From a virus: DNA of 37,839 nt. The translations under genes and the position numbers were made by a program. Positions 12,478-26,759 of the stretch are shown one piece after another. The DNA lies in the IMG/VR virus record IMGVR_UViG_3300005613_000191, positions 1 to 37,839 of that record; one strand, 5' to 3'. Positions within the stretch are counted from its first letter, which is position 1, and the number at the start of each line of letters is the position of its first letter. The notes below the pieces were generated by a model, which saw nothing but the letters and a program-made list of their open reading frames with translations, was not told where the DNA came from and did no database searches.

Positions 12478-12513
12478 ACGATATTAAAGTAAGAAAATGG
12501 CTCCTGCAGAAAA

Positions 12514-12550
12514 CTATATAAAGCCCTTAGGCCTCTATACTATTAGAGGC
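12514..12550 (+). promoter_or_regulatory. TATA promoter with palindrome at the expected transcription start
   Basis: CTATATAAAG (12514-12523) is a strong archaeal-type TATA box. About 23 bases downstream is the palindrome GCCTCTA-TACTAT-TAGAGGC (12531-12550), so the start of transcription would fall inside it. The same palindrome at the same spacing occurs at 26725-26742, and a diverged one at 22504-22519. It should drive the rightward operon starting at 12559. Confidence 0.75.
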
Positions 12551-20429: not shown

Positions 20430-20622
20430 GATTATTATTTATTATTAATATATTATATGTATGATATATATTGTATGGTGTATAAAGTATTATGTCATAT
20501 TGTTATTATGCCATATTGACCATTCACCAACAGACTAATATATGGGATGCCGGATATAAATGAAATATGGCCGTTGTTATGCCGAATCGCAATAATGCCA
20601 AAATGACAGTTATCATAGAAAA

Positions 20623-20654
20623 GTATATAAAGGACGGATAACATATATATATGT
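20623..20654 (+). promoter_or_regulatory. TATA promoter with palindrome near the start
   Basis: GTATATAAAG (20623-20632) is followed about 20 bases on by the palindrome ACATATATATATGT (20641-20654), the same spacing class as the promoters at 12514, 22486 and 26707. It would start the leader RNA described next and the mini-gene array. Confidence 0.65.
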
Positions 20655-20880
20655 ATAAGAAAAACGAAATCAGGCCTTGTCCGGTTCGACTTTCTTATCT
20701 CAGTCGCAAAATCGTTTCGAAAATAATTTCGAATGCAGAATTTCAGTATTCTATTATTTCAATCATTTCGAAGTACAATTAAATTCAGAACAAGGCAGTA
20801 ATTTAATTTGAAATATATTTAATCACCTAAAATTAATTCTAATGACCGTCAAACGTTATTAGAATAAAGAAATAGAATGA
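20648..20880 (+). ncRNA. structured leader RNA (putative)
   Basis: About 230 noncoding bases lie between the promoter and the first small gene. Predicted pairings: a long-range stem GCCTTGT (20674-20680) with ACAAGGC (20790-20796); inside it, TTCGAA (20716-20721) with TTCGAA (20728-20733) and AGAAT (20737-20741) with ATTCT (20748-20752). A third TTCGAA is at 20767. Outside, an 11-bp stem ATTCTAATGAC (20836-20846) pairs with GTTATTAGAAT (20855-20865), one G-U. It could be a stand-alone RNA or a leader. The structures are by eye, without energy calculation. Confidence 0.5.
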
Positions 20881-20892
20881 TTGAGATTTTTA

Positions 20893-20909
20893 TCCGGTGC
20901 AACTCCGGA
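20893..20909 (+). promoter_or_regulatory. leader hairpin, conserved-loop family, copy 1
   Basis: TCCGG-TGCAACT-CCGGA followed by CTATTTTTTTC and then the ATG at 20921. Copies 2 and 3 (22006-22022 and 22550-22566) keep the loop TGCAAYT while the third stem pair changes from C-G to G-C to T-A. This copy lacks a Shine-Dalgarno site between hairpin and ATG. Confidence 0.7.
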
Positions 20910-20920
20910 CTATTTTTTTC

Positions 20921-21016
20921 ATGACACAAAGTGATTTGGCAATATTTATTATTTCATTTTATATTGGAGTTGTATATCCACTAATATTATATTTTGCTCT
21001 AATATTAATGAAATAA
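20921..21016 (+). CDS. mini membrane protein
   Basis: A 31-residue frame, MTQSDLAIFIISFYIGVVYP at its start, almost all one hydrophobic segment ending in a lysine. It starts 12 bases after hairpin copy 1 with no clear ribosome site. The reading is supported mainly by its place in the hairpin-led array and by composition. Function unknown. Confidence 0.55.
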   Translation: MTQSDLAIFIISFYIGVVYPLILYFALILMK

Positions 21017-21020
21017 AATT

Positions 21021-21062
21021 AGGAATCTTAGGGCTCATCCCCTATTATTCTTTTCAGGTGAT
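21021..21062 (+). repeat. 42-nt leader repeat R1
   Basis: First of four near-identical 42-base leaders. Each has AGGAAT[CT]TTAGGG, a hairpin TAGGG-loop-CCCTA (here 21029-21033 with 21040-21044, loop CTCATC), a TATTATTCTTTT tract and the ribosome site CAGGTGAT, followed by an ATG 4-6 bases later. Serves the gene at 21067. Confidence 0.85.
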
Positions 21063-21066
21063 ATAA

Positions 21067-21222
21067 ATGAATGCAAAAATATGGGATAAAATAAAAGAAA
21101 AATATATTGATGTCCGCAATGTTGAATTTATCTATCAATCTGATTGTGGATATTTTAAATTGGACAAAGCTAAATATAAAACTGATAGATATGTTTTGCA
21201 ATTCGTTCACCAATATAATTAA
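21067..21222 (+). CDS. mini protein of the hairpin-led array
   Basis: A 51-residue protein (starts MNAKIWDKIKEKYIDVRNVE), mixed charged and aromatic, with LQFVHQYN at the C-terminus. Ribosome site AGGTGAT at the end of R1. No family recognised. Confidence 0.7.
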   Translation: MNAKIWDKIKEKYIDVRNVEFIYQSDCGYFKLDKAKYKTDRYVLQFVHQYN

Positions 21223-21226
21223 AAAC

Positions 21227-21268
21227 AGGAATTTTAGGGGTCATTCCCTATTATTCTTTTCAGGTGAT
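21227..21268 (+). repeat. 42-nt leader repeat R2
   Basis: Same 42-base design as R1; stem TAGGG (21235-21239) with CCCTA (21246-21250) and loop GTCATT, then the U-rich tract and AGGTGAT. Serves the gene at 21274. Confidence 0.85.
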
Positions 21269-21273
21269 AAATA

Positions 21274-21399
21274 ATGACAGATATAAATAAATTATTAACT
21301 GGCAGTGAACATTTTGCTGAACAAGGGGCAATAATATTAATTAATTTAATATGTTCTATTTTAATAGTTGCTGGAATGTTGATTGACAGTTATATTTAA
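21274..21399 (+). CDS. mini membrane protein of the hairpin-led array
   Basis: A 41-residue protein with a polar start (MTDINKLLTGSEHFAEQ) and one hydrophobic helix (AIILINLICSILIVAGMLI). Good ribosome site at the end of R2. The single-helix layout is like that of small phage membrane or lysis regulators, but no family is recognised. Confidence 0.7.
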   Translation: MTDINKLLTGSEHFAEQGAIILINLICSILIVAGMLIDSYI

Positions 21400-21408
21400 A
21401 TAAAAATC

Positions 21409-21450
21409 AGGAATCTTAGGGCTCATCCCCTATTATTCTTTTCAGGTGAT
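21409..21450 (+). repeat. 42-nt leader repeat R3
   Basis: Same design; stem TAGGG (21417-21421) with CCCTA (21428-21432), loop CTCATC as in R1. Serves the gene at 21456. Confidence 0.85.
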
Positions 21451-21455
21451 AAATA

Positions 21456-21575
21456 ATGTCGTGTCAATTTTGTGGCAAAAAAACAGCAATTTATAAAACT
21501 ATTGTATTTGGAGTTGACATGGAAGTATGCGACAATTGTTATCATACTTTAAATCCAATAGAAACTCCATTTTAG
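21456..21575 (+). CDS. mini zinc-ribbon protein of the hairpin-led array
   Basis: A 39-residue protein with MSCQFCGKKTAIYK and VCDNCYHTLNP, a four-cysteine zinc ribbon like the first domain of small archaeal zinc proteins. Ribosome site at the end of R3; its TAG stop is part of the first bases of R4. Confidence 0.8.
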   Translation: MSCQFCGKKTAIYKTIVFGVDMEVCDNCYHTLNPIETPF

Positions 21576-21615
21576 GAATCTTAGGGGTCATTCCCTATTA
21601 TTCTTTTCAGGTGAT
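21574..21615 (+). repeat. 42-nt leader repeat R4
   Basis: Same design; stem TAGGG (21582-21586) with CCCTA (21593-21597), loop GTCATT as in R2. Its first two bases lie in the stop codon of the preceding gene. Serves the gene at 21620. Confidence 0.85.
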
Positions 21616-21619
21616 AAAT

Positions 21620-21997
21620 ATGAAATATGAAATAAAACAAAATGTAGAATTGGAAGCAAGTCAATTCGTAAGACTGTCAAAAGATATACAAATCGGAAAT
21701 AACTATTTGCAAGAAGGACAATATGTTTTGATTGACGAAGTTGCAAAACATAAAGTTATCTTTACTGAATTTTTTGTAATCGGTGGACAGCCAAAACTAA
21801 AATATGGCAAATATCAGCACCAAATCAATAATAGCCCGGCAGAACAAATACAATTTGAGGAATTTTTATCTTCAATTGTATATGTTTACGCACCAGAATT
21901 GATTGAAGCGAATATTCCACAAAAATACTGGTCAAAAGGCGATTTAATGCATTATATCTCGTTTCTTGAAGACCAAATATCAGATTTGGAGAATTAA
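21620..21997 (+). CDS. hypothetical protein of the hairpin-led array
   Basis: A 125-residue protein; start chosen at 21620 because it follows AGGTGAT of R4, not the upstream in-frame TTG-type starts that would read through R4. It begins MKYEIKQNVELEASQFVRLS, is mixed beta and helical, and ends acidic (HYISFLEDQISDLEN). No family recognised. Confidence 0.7.
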   Translation: MKYEIKQNVELEASQFVRLSKDIQIGNNYLQEGQYVLIDEVAKHKVIFTEFFVIGGQPKLKYGKYQHQINNSPAEQIQFEEFLSSIVYVYAPELIEANIPQKYWSKGDLMHYISFLEDQISDLEN

Positions 21998-22005
21998 GTC
22001 TTTTA

Positions 22006-22022
22006 TCGGGTGCAATTCCCGA
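22006..22022 (+). promoter_or_regulatory. leader hairpin, conserved-loop family, copy 2
   Basis: TCGGG-TGCAATT-CCCGA, then CCATTTTTATC and a strong AGGAGGT ribosome site (22034-22040) before the next gene. Third stem pair is G-C here. Confidence 0.75.
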
Positions 22023-22049
22023 CCATTTTTATCAGGAGGTAGATATGAA

Positions 22050-22160
22050 ATGATAATTGTAGGAAAAGTCAACACTACAGAAGAAGCAAAAGAAATAATC
22101 CTTGTCGCCAAAATATCTGCAATTGGACAGCGAGCCCAATTTCTAGGTAGGCAGGCATAA
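22050..22160 (+). CDS. mini protein after conserved-loop hairpin
   Basis: A 36-residue protein (MIIVGKVNTTEEAKEIILVA at the start). The ATG at 22050 is 9 bases after AGGAGGT. A two-codon frame ATG-AAA-TGA at 22045 sits between ribosome site and start and overlaps it (ATGA), so ribosomes would meet a minimal frame first; this could be regulatory or accidental. No family recognised. Confidence 0.6.
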   Translation: MIIVGKVNTTEEAKEIILVAKISAIGQRAQFLGRQA

Positions 22161-22161
22161 T

Positions 22162-22281
22162 ATGACCGACAAAATAGAGACTGTAGAAATTCTGTCAGAG
22201 TCAGACAGACGATTGAAAAGCAAAAAAGTCAAAAAATATATACATGATTTATATGAAAAATATTATGGTGACAATATATGA
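22162..22281 (+). CDS. small basic protein
   Basis: A 39-residue protein (MTDKIETVEILSESDRRLKS at its start) with a lysine-rich centre. GGTAGGCAG precedes the ATG and its stop overlaps the next start (ATGA). Function unknown. Confidence 0.55.
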   Translation: MTDKIETVEILSESDRRLKSKKVKKYIHDLYEKYYGDNI

Positions 22282-22463
22282 ACAAAAACGAGATAATAAT
22301 CACACAAAGTGAAATAACACTCAAAACGATAAATGGAGTTGACTTTGTTATAGGCAAACATTATTATGACATAGTTAAAAAAGCCATAGCAAAGTCAAAA
22401 TCACTCTATAAACAAGACAAGCACAATGTAATTCAATATGATTTGGACAGTTGGAACATTTGA
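22278..22463 (+). CDS. small hypothetical protein
   Basis: A 61-residue protein (MNKNEIIITQSEITLKTING at its start), mixed, ending before a promoter. No family recognised. It is the last gene read from the promoter at 20623 before the next TATA box. Confidence 0.6.
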   Translation: MNKNEIIITQSEITLKTINGVDFVIGKHYYDIVKKAIAKSKSLYKQDKHNVIQYDLDSWNI

Positions 22464-22485
22464 AATAAAATGGCAAGTAAAAAGA

Positions 22486-22519
22486 TTTATATAGCCTGTT
22501 GCCCTCTATATAAGCAGAG
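22486..22519 (+). promoter_or_regulatory. TATA promoter with diverged palindrome
   Basis: TTTATATAGCC (22486-22496) and, 22 bases downstream from box centre to centre, CTCTATATAAGCAGAG (22504-22519), flanked by CTGTTG and CAACAG which also pair. Aligns with the promoters at 12514 and 26707 through TATA, GCC and CCTCTATA. Confidence 0.7.
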
Positions 22520-22549
22520 ACAACAGAATTGGAGTATTTAAGGCTTTAA

Positions 22550-22566
22550 TCTGGTGCAATTCCAGA
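22550..22566 (+). promoter_or_regulatory. leader hairpin, conserved-loop family, copy 3
   Basis: TCTGG-TGCAATT-CCAGA, then CCTTTTTTATCA and GGAAGTGA before the ATG at 22593. The third stem pair is T-A here, completing a three-way covariation with copies 1 and 2. Confidence 0.75.
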
Positions 22567-22592
22567 CCTTTTTTATCACGGAAGTGAAATAT

Positions 22593-22964
22593 ATGACCAA
22601 AAAAACAACAAAAATAAATAAGAAAAATAAGACGCAAGTAAAGGAAACACCAACAGTGGCCGACAAAATAGCCGCTCCAGTGACCGAAAAAACCTGCCCA
22701 AAGTGTGGAAGAACATTGCCTGCTGCAAATTTTCCGCATGATTACCGCAGAAAAGATACTCTGTACATCTATTGCAGGGAATGTGAAGCAAAACGTCAAT
22801 ACGACAAACACACAAGAAATATAATTAAGAATGCAGAGGCAAACGGTTATACAGTTTTGAAAGTGACCAACGCCGCACCAACAATGCAAGTAGATGTCCT
22901 TAAAATCGATGTCAACCCAAACACCGGCAAAACCATTGAAACAGAACTAGCGCCAAGCGAATAA
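22593..22964 (+). CDS. zinc-ribbon protein, HNH-like or DNA-binding
   Basis: A 123-residue protein starting MTKKTTKINKKNKTQ; the track beginning upstream of 22593 would read through the hairpin. It carries CPKCGRTLPAANFPHDYRRK and YCRECEAKRQYDKHTR, the paired cysteines and R/K-rich loop common in phage zinc-finger nucleases and recombination endonuclease VII-like proteins, but the catalytic HNH residues are not clear. The C-terminus is acidic/Thr-rich. First gene of the promoter at 22486. Confidence 0.65.
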   Translation: MTKKTTKINKKNKTQVKETPTVADKIAAPVTEKTCPKCGRTLPAANFPHDYRRKDTLYIYCRECEAKRQYDKHTRNIIKNAEANGYTVLKVTNAAPTMQVDVLKIDVNPNTGKTIETELAPSE

Positions 22965-26430: not shown

Positions 26431-26759
26431 TGAAAGGAGATAAATTGTATTGTATTGAATGCGGAAATTATAGTATTGATGTACAAAATTTCTATGACTC
26501 TAGAAACAATGGCAAACCTAAATATGATGCACCGAAAAAAGTACATTTTGTTTGGAACTGCCCATATTGTGGGTCTAACAAAATAATGAATGTCAATCAA
26601 ACAATGATAGATAACATTATAATAATAAACAAAAAAAAGAATAATTATAAAGGGTCTACATTGTATAAGAAATTCAAGAAGGATTGGCCTTTGCTCCAAC
26701 AGAAAACTTTAAATAGCCTATCGGCCTCTATACTATTAGAGGAGACTGACAATGACTAA
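26430..26759 (+). CDS. zinc-ribbon protein with a promoter inside its 3' end
   Basis: A 109-residue protein with YCIECGNYSID and NCPYCGSNKIM, a zinc ribbon with 40 residues between pairs, then a basic helix. The last 18 codons or so are encoded by the promoter/palindrome sequence 26707-26742 that serves the next gene, so the C-terminal residues (TLNSLSASILLEETDND) may be read from regulatory DNA. A shorter ancestral gene is possible. Confidence 0.6.
   Translation: MKGDKLYCIECGNYSIDVQNFYDSRNNGKPKYDAPKKVHFVWNCPYCGSNKIMNVNQTMIDNIIIINKKKNNYKGSTLYKKFKKDWPLLQQKTLNSLSASILLEETDND
26707..26742 (+). promoter_or_regulatory. TATA promoter with palindrome, within a coding region
   Basis: CTTTAAATA (26707-26715) and, at 22-base spacing, CCTCTATACTATTAGAGG (26725-26742), identical in its palindrome to the 12514 promoter. 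It lies within the end of the 26430 gene and just ahead of the 26752 gene, giving a second start for the metabolic operon. Confidence 0.7.

Follow-up and report, generated by a model that had tools for sequence, protein, structure and literature searches.

Why does a virus place, ahead of almost every gene in a run of very small ones, another copy of what looks like the same short hairpin? The question is raised by the virus record IMGVR_UViG_3300005613_000191, whose entire 37.8-kb sequence constitutes the window analyzed here. Its open reading frame list holds nine short plus-strand genes within 20.9-22.97 kb, seven of which are preceded by a hairpin leader (Table 1). An initial annotation, made from the letters alone, had given almost every gene its own leader and proposed that these act as attenuators or terminators, or else as sites of cutting or binding of the message, behind a single promoter. 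We found that leaders of this kind recur in a related virus and are structured RNA elements, and we tentatively interpret them as copies of one translational operator. Genes 7 and 8 (starting at 22162 and 22278) are the two that lack a leader.

The leaders belong to two families. Family A comprises four copies (21021, 21227, 21409 and 21574) with 82-92% identity to a reference copy over 60 nt, and its pattern AGGGNTCATNCCCTATTATTCTTTTCAGGTG occurs four times in the window versus 0.00 expected from shuffles. The family B core, TCNGGTGCAAYTCCNGA, has three exact matches (20893, 22006 and 22550), where 0.85 are expected even with three mismatches allowed. All elements of both families described in the initial annotation were thus recovered in place, far above chance in shuffled sequence. 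A neutral scan of 20.4-23.2 kb for terminator-like elements, defined as a hairpin plus a T-rich stretch, returned exactly the seven leaders, versus 1.5 ± 1.5 in shuffles.

We sought relatives among viral contigs with TerL, PolA and the array proteins, and among genome contigs with TerL. The TerL search recovered a 45.2-kb syntenic virus, IMGVR_UViG_3300035698_012380 (77% identity in TerL and 64% in PolA), and a 10.4-kb fragment that ends short of the array. The genome contigs yielded no further relative, degenerate leader-pattern searches found nothing beyond the one relative and a DNA search of a phage collection gave weak matches of about 33-43 nt only. When the relative is reversed, the matching place (14.9-17.0 kb on the minus strand of its stretch L025) holds five structurally equivalent leaders, r1-r5, serving five of seven genes, or six of seven if the hairpin r0 described below is counted. 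The prospect that the leaders would lack conservation in relatives, which had been named as one half of a possible refutation, therefore falls away. Three genes are common to both arrays in the same order, and the remaining genes differ. The shared pairs are of 125 and 133 aa (35% identity overall, higher at the C-terminus), of 36 and 35 aa (with a common MIIVG... start) and a 123-aa zinc-finger gene (59% identity). Each carries a leader in both genomes (A4/r1, B2/r4 and B3/r5, respectively).

To describe the common fold, we aligned the 12 leaders (A1-A4, B1-B3 and r1-r5), with gaps in the loop and bulge placed by hand and guided by the fold. In each, an inner stem of 5 bp closes a loop of 6 or 7 nt that reads N(U/G)CA(A)NN; a U-rich tract follows and then, except in B1, a Shine-Dalgarno (SD) sequence. 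In the inner stem, 98.3% of alignment cells are paired, and four of the five pairs have changed on both sides among these leaders from two genomes. The covariation score of this stem is 0.667; shuffles give 0.174, none of 500 attaining the observed value, and slid positions give 0.161 or less. For the whole structure, including an outer A/U helix, the score is 0.569 versus 0.241. The loop C-A is invariant in 12 of 12 leaders amid a drifting stem sequence, as expected of a recognized loop. Loops of 7 nt, found in five leaders (B1-B3, r2 and r5), read U(U/G)CAA(U/C)(U/C), and the other seven leaders have 6-nt loops. G-U pairs occur in the stems, which indicates an RNA rather than a DNA element. 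Individually, the leaders fold only modestly better than shuffles (z from −1.0 to −4.1), and covariation, not energy, is therefore the main structural evidence. We conclude that the leaders are structured RNA elements selected for stem pairing and loop sequence.

Beyond the inner stem, family A and r1-r5 have an outer helix of 6-8 bp, separated by a small 5′ bulge or internal loop. Most of their U-rich tract forms the 3′ strand of this A/U helix and hence is not a free U-tract; in r5, one tract U has become C and its partner G, with the pair kept. The longest T run in these nine leaders is 4, versus 7, 5 and 6 in B1, B2 and B3. The fixed order of hairpin, U-rich tract, SD and ATG claimed initially is thus present in six of the seven window leaders, and B1 does lack the SD (U7-C-AUG), as had been stated, but the tract of family A is largely paired.

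Covariance models were used to test specificity. A model of all 12 leaders matched only those 12 in 93 kb of sequence (both viruses plus the fragment) and gave no credible hit in 270 kb of distant loci. In the window, the top hits of a model built from the relative alone were A4, A1 and A3 (E 0.09-0.39); conversely, a model built from the window alone placed r2, r5 and r3 at the top in the relative, with a best E of 0.003. Rfam returned no gathering-level match in the window, its hits in the array (E up to 5) being at chance level, and none in the relative; ARAGORN found no tRNA. Although its general kind is known, this RNA element is new, specific to the lineage and confined to one array.

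Leaders of the same genome also tend to resemble each other more than they resemble their counterparts. Within genomes, identity is 88-94% among A1-A4, 79-93% among r1-r5 and 80% between B2 and B3 (54-62% for B1 versus B2 or B3), and between orthologous genes across genomes it is 56-67%. Judged from these values, the leaders of one genome tend to change in concert, a behavior expected under a common trans factor or gene conversion.

Their position is likewise constrained. The AUG lies 22-28 nt past the inner stem in 11 of the 12 leaders (22-23 nt in family A, 26-27 nt in B2 and B3 and 27-28 nt in r1-r5) and 11 nt past it in B1. B3 sits 86 nt beyond the preceding stop codon, downstream of its own promoter, and B1 has no gene upstream; the leader is therefore tied to the downstream start codon rather than to the upstream stop. 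In r2-r5, the upstream gene's stop codon falls within the outer stem, and the hairpin would accordingly be opened by a ribosome terminating there.

We favor the reading, with a probability of roughly 0.45, that every leader is a copy of a single operator of translation initiation, to which a common factor binds, and that the small and probably early viral genes of the array are transcribed together. A trans factor common to all copies, most likely a viral or host RNA-binding protein, would recognize the short stem and the N(U/G)CA(A)NN loop. Bound beside the SD, it would set 30S access, and the mini-proteins would thereby be switched or dosed together. Each independent translation start of the array has the conserved-loop hairpin beside its SD that such an operator calls for, apart from B1 with its missing SD. 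The leaderless genes would be translated by coupling, because their starts lie so close to the preceding stop: 1 nt past it in gene 7, overlapping it in gene 8 and overlapping it (TAATG) in a leaderless 111-aa gene of the relative.

Several points weigh against an operator. Translational control alone does not require the U-rich sequence that follows every hairpin, and no candidate for the putative binding protein came to light. B1 has no SD and stands only 11 nt from its AUG. The outer helix is weak in family B, the hand-placed gaps bias pair counts towards the assumed fold and the cross-genome model E-values are weak but for one (0.003; the rest 0.09-0.46). The array is known from two genomes only, and recent duplication or gene conversion, without a trans factor, could be the source of the concerted evolution. 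Nor is a cis switch that sequesters the SD evident: the unpaired probability of the SD region (positions −14 to −5) ranges from 0.23 to 0.62 across the 12 leaders, with no consistent pattern, and this candidate was rejected.

Among the alternatives, internal operon terminators or attenuators, the first choice of the initial annotation, survive best, although we consider them unlikely. Here, a hairpin with its U-rich tract would end a fraction of transcripts at each leader and the dose would fall stepwise, possibly under an antitermination factor. All seven window leaders do match the scan for a G+C-rich stem immediately followed by a T-rich stretch, and the T runs of family B (7, 5 and 6), as against 4 in family A and r2, reach the five unpaired U expected behind the stem of a hairpin-type intrinsic terminator. 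In Methanococcus maripaludis, moreover, aCPSF1-dependent internal operon termination at U-tracts is common and functional (PMC10450193), and U4 tracts are a featured terminator motif (PMC8716108). However, archaeal terminators are U-tracts with no strict need of a hairpin (PMC8716108), whereas what the leaders conserve is their helix and loop. The T runs of family A and the relative, only 4 long, lie mostly in the helix, where the U-to-C change of r5 is compensated by its partner G; B1, in the 5′ leader, has no gene upstream to terminate; and the distance kept is that to the start codon, not the stop, as the 86 nt before B3 illustrate. These features led us to abandon termination as the leading interpretation.

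The leaders could instead be RNA-processing sites, at which a host or viral RNase cuts the hairpins and frees monocistronic messages with short, SD-bearing leaders; we judge this improbable. In family A and r1-r5, an inner stem set off by a small 5′ bulge or internal loop from an outer helix of 6-8 bp would suit such a substrate, and the upstream stops inside the outer stems of r2-r5 place the element exactly between cistrons. One version invokes mimicry of a tRNA half: the 7-nt loop of r2 and r5 is T-loop-like, and their stem would stack on a 7-8-bp outer helix as an acceptor/T-arm minihelix. The five 7-nt loops fit most positions of the T-loop consensus, but seven of the 12 loops have 6 nt and are not T-loop-compatible. 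B1-B3 lack a clear outer helix and carry G at the second loop position, and the absence of ARAGORN tRNAs and of gathering-level Rfam matches also speaks against this version. That the leaders are tRNA-half-like minihelices cut by host tRNA-processing enzymes, a viral tRNA punctuation splitting the long message into mini-gene messages, appears very improbable.

Only a slim chance is left to the idea that the leaders are chiefly recombination cassettes with little regulatory role, their near-identity providing homology for the gain, loss and shuffling of gene-plus-leader units. Gene content does vary around the three conserved genes, whose order is kept, and each extra non-abutting gene brings its own leader; the leaders are homogenized within each genome; and a shuffling role has been assigned to the PeSL elements of T4-type phages, as cited in PMC4503421. 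Recombination alone nevertheless selects neither compensatory stem changes, nor an invariant loop C-A, nor a near-fixed AUG distance, and it is compatible with a simultaneous regulatory role. Three further candidates were rejected: pairing between loop and start codon is not general (base pairing with AUGA starts is possible for the UCAU loops found in family A, r3 and r4 and impossible for UCAA loops), for an antisense partner the window offers just two sites complementary to the A tract with one mismatch (20347 and 26634) and the relative none, and a DNA operator or cruciform does not fit a freely varying stem sequence, the G-U pairs and the same orientation of all copies.

Table 1. Leaders, genes and control elements of the mini-gene array (window coordinates; L025 denotes the relative's stretch)
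Feature	Coordinates	Strand	Remarks
Array promoter BRE/TATA AGAAAAGTATATAAAG	20617..20632	+	11/13 to archaeal BRE+TATA consensus; relative has aligned AGACAACTATATATAG
Hairpin TTCGAA-AATAAT-TTCGAA in operon 5′ leader	20716..20733	+	Relative TTCCAA/TTGGAA; compensatory G-C to C-G change (two-genome alignment)
Hairpin w0, end of operon 5′ leader	20836..20865	+	Loop with GUCAAA; −10.4 kcal/mol, z −5.2
Leader B1	20882..20920	+	Inner stem-loop 20893-20909, then CTATTTTTTTC; no SD
Mini-gene 1	20921..21016	+	31 aa, hydrophobic, one likely transmembrane segment; no family match
Leader A1	21021..21066	+	Precedes mini-gene 2
Mini-gene 2	21067..21222	+	51 aa; no family match
Leader A2	21227..21273	+	Precedes mini-gene 3
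Mini-gene 3	21274..21399	+	41 aa, one likely transmembrane segment
Leader A3	21409..21455	+	Precedes mini-gene 4
Mini-gene 4	21456..21575	+	39 aa, four-cysteine zinc-finger-like; weak ClpX zinc-finger match, below cut-off
Leader A4	21574..21619	+	Precedes gene 5; mini-gene 4 stop codon overlaps A4 outer stem
Gene 5	21620..21997	+	125 aa; kept in relative (L025 16388-16789, minus strand), there with leader r1
Leader B2	21996..22044	+	Inner stem-loop 22006-22022; SD is AGGAGG; precedes gene 6
Gene 6	22050..22160	+	36 aa (MIIVGKV...); kept in relative (L025 15696-15803, minus strand), there with leader r4
Gene 7	22162..22281	+	39 aa; no leader; begins 1 nt after gene 6 stop
Gene 8	22278..22463	+	61 aa; no leader; start overlaps gene 7 stop
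Second promoter, consensus BRE/TATA AAAAAGATTTATATAG	22479..22494	+	13/13; upstream of leader B3
Leader B3	22540..22592	+	Inner stem-loop 22550-22566; precedes gene 9
Gene 9	22593..22964	+	123-aa zinc-finger protein; kept in relative (L025 14941-15312, minus strand), there with leader r5

The proposal that one promoter feeds all genes was not supported as stated, as a second, full-consensus BRE/TATA (13/13) at 22479 stands directly before the last leader. No leader has a strong BRE/TATA between hairpin and gene, the site at 22479, upstream of B3, being the sole consensus site within the array. A separate promoter for each gene was accordingly rejected, the scan having found one before B3 only. 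Downstream of the predicted array promoter, a non-coding 5′ leader of ~240 nt (20640-20880) is kept in both viruses. The relative's r0 (loop GUCAUG; −10.8 kcal/mol, z −3.4) occupies the place of w0, and both loops also contain GUCA.

Two observations concern the surrounding control regions. The unit TATA(A/T)AGCC-N4-GGCCTCTATA, a BRE/TATA followed directly by a near-palindrome, is present in three plus-strand copies (12508-12547, 22479-22518 and 26701-26740), versus 0.00 expected, and is absent from the relative's L025 stretch with up to three mismatches allowed; judged by its sequence, it may be a promoter-operator that the three sites share. Both viruses also have, immediately before the array promoter, a long AT-rich, gene-poor stretch with short repeats (19.9-20.5 kb in the window and 17.4-18.4 kb in L025), a candidate origin or control region.

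The products of the array probably include early host-takeover proteins, a role suggested by their makeup: several are either short and hydrophobic or resemble zinc-finger proteins, and the product of gene 9 has PHROG matches to the families of endonuclease VII (7e-10) and Lar-like restriction alleviation (1e-8). Family searches with mini-genes 1 and 2 gave no match. AlphaFold modeled the gene 5 product with low confidence (pLDDT 66; best PDB match E 0.11), and the model supports neither a function nor an RNA-binding role. At gene 6 (22045-22053), AGGAGG is followed at better spacing by another ATG, which starts a frame of just two codons (ATG AAA TGA) with a stop codon overlapping the true start at 22050; this frame is absent in the relative. 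The host is probably an archaeon, given the BRE/TATA promoters and SD sites. Elsewhere in the genome, 32391-35239 encodes a large protein, probably of surface-polysaccharide type (F420-hydrogenase beta-like and pyruvyl-transferase-like, by eye), followed by a glycosyltransferase-like protein; this region is well conserved in the relative (65-68%).

Start-associated repeats of other viruses provide the closest comparisons. In cluster K mycobacteriophages, SAS and ESAS repeats stand directly before the start codons of many small non-structural genes, have a subcluster-specific inverted-repeat consensus, are kept by orthologous genes and are suspected to bind a trans factor (PMC3203893). The leaders resemble them in that many small genes carry a conserved element where the ribosome binds. 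The authors of that study, however, found RNA hairpins little supported, as departures in the repeat halves do not favor pairing, and preferred DNA-binding sites (PMC3203893), whereas RNA pairing is strongly supported for the leaders, whose stem and loop are short and whose copies are confined to one array. Their sequence also differs, and the 13-bp SAS GGGATAGGAGCCC is not present in them.

The initial annotation knew of no archaeal-virus system with this layout, which must be narrowed. In the tailed archaeal virus HGTV-1, a TATA box and inverted repeat precede most genes of one genome half and have been likened to PeSLs (PMC3950731); the HGTV-1 sequence that we inspected has a T-rich stretch, an inverted repeat (CTCCTCGTGG...) and then the TATA box GTATATAA roughly 55-90 nt before the gene. 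An inverted repeat before most small genes is common to both arrangements (seven of nine genes in the window; five of seven, or six with r0, in the relative), but no TATA box separates hairpin and gene here and the SD follows directly. As cited in PMC4503421, PeSLs of T4-type phages are stem-loops that lie between small genes in a variable region and to which a role in shuffling has been ascribed; they combine a terminator stem-loop with a promoter, unlike the present array with its one promoter plus one before the last leader and its conserved loop. In SIRV2 and other archaeal viruses, a virus-specific motif is common to many small, fast-evolving early anti-defense genes; it consists of BRE/TATA promoter DNA at single genes (PMC11065993), whereas the motif shared here is transcribed RNA inside an operon. 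Both archaeal precedents thus act at the promoter level, and the RNA-level version appears new. Within one archaeal operon, the U-rich ioTTS signals of Methanococcus set different doses between genes; these are described by their U-tracts (PMC10450193), whereas conservation in the leaders falls on the helix and loop, and most copies have a U run that is short or paired.

Until now, repeated start-associated elements of viruses have been taken for promoter or DNA-binding units, RNA pairing not having been shown in the mycobacteriophage case. The leaders described here combine clear covariation, an invariant loop and apparently concerted evolution in two related viruses, and a whole set of probable host-takeover genes may be governed jointly at the post-transcriptional level. 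In that case, the binding factor would act as an early regulator of infection, and the leaders would serve both as bait for it and as a marker for such genes in other archaeal viruses.

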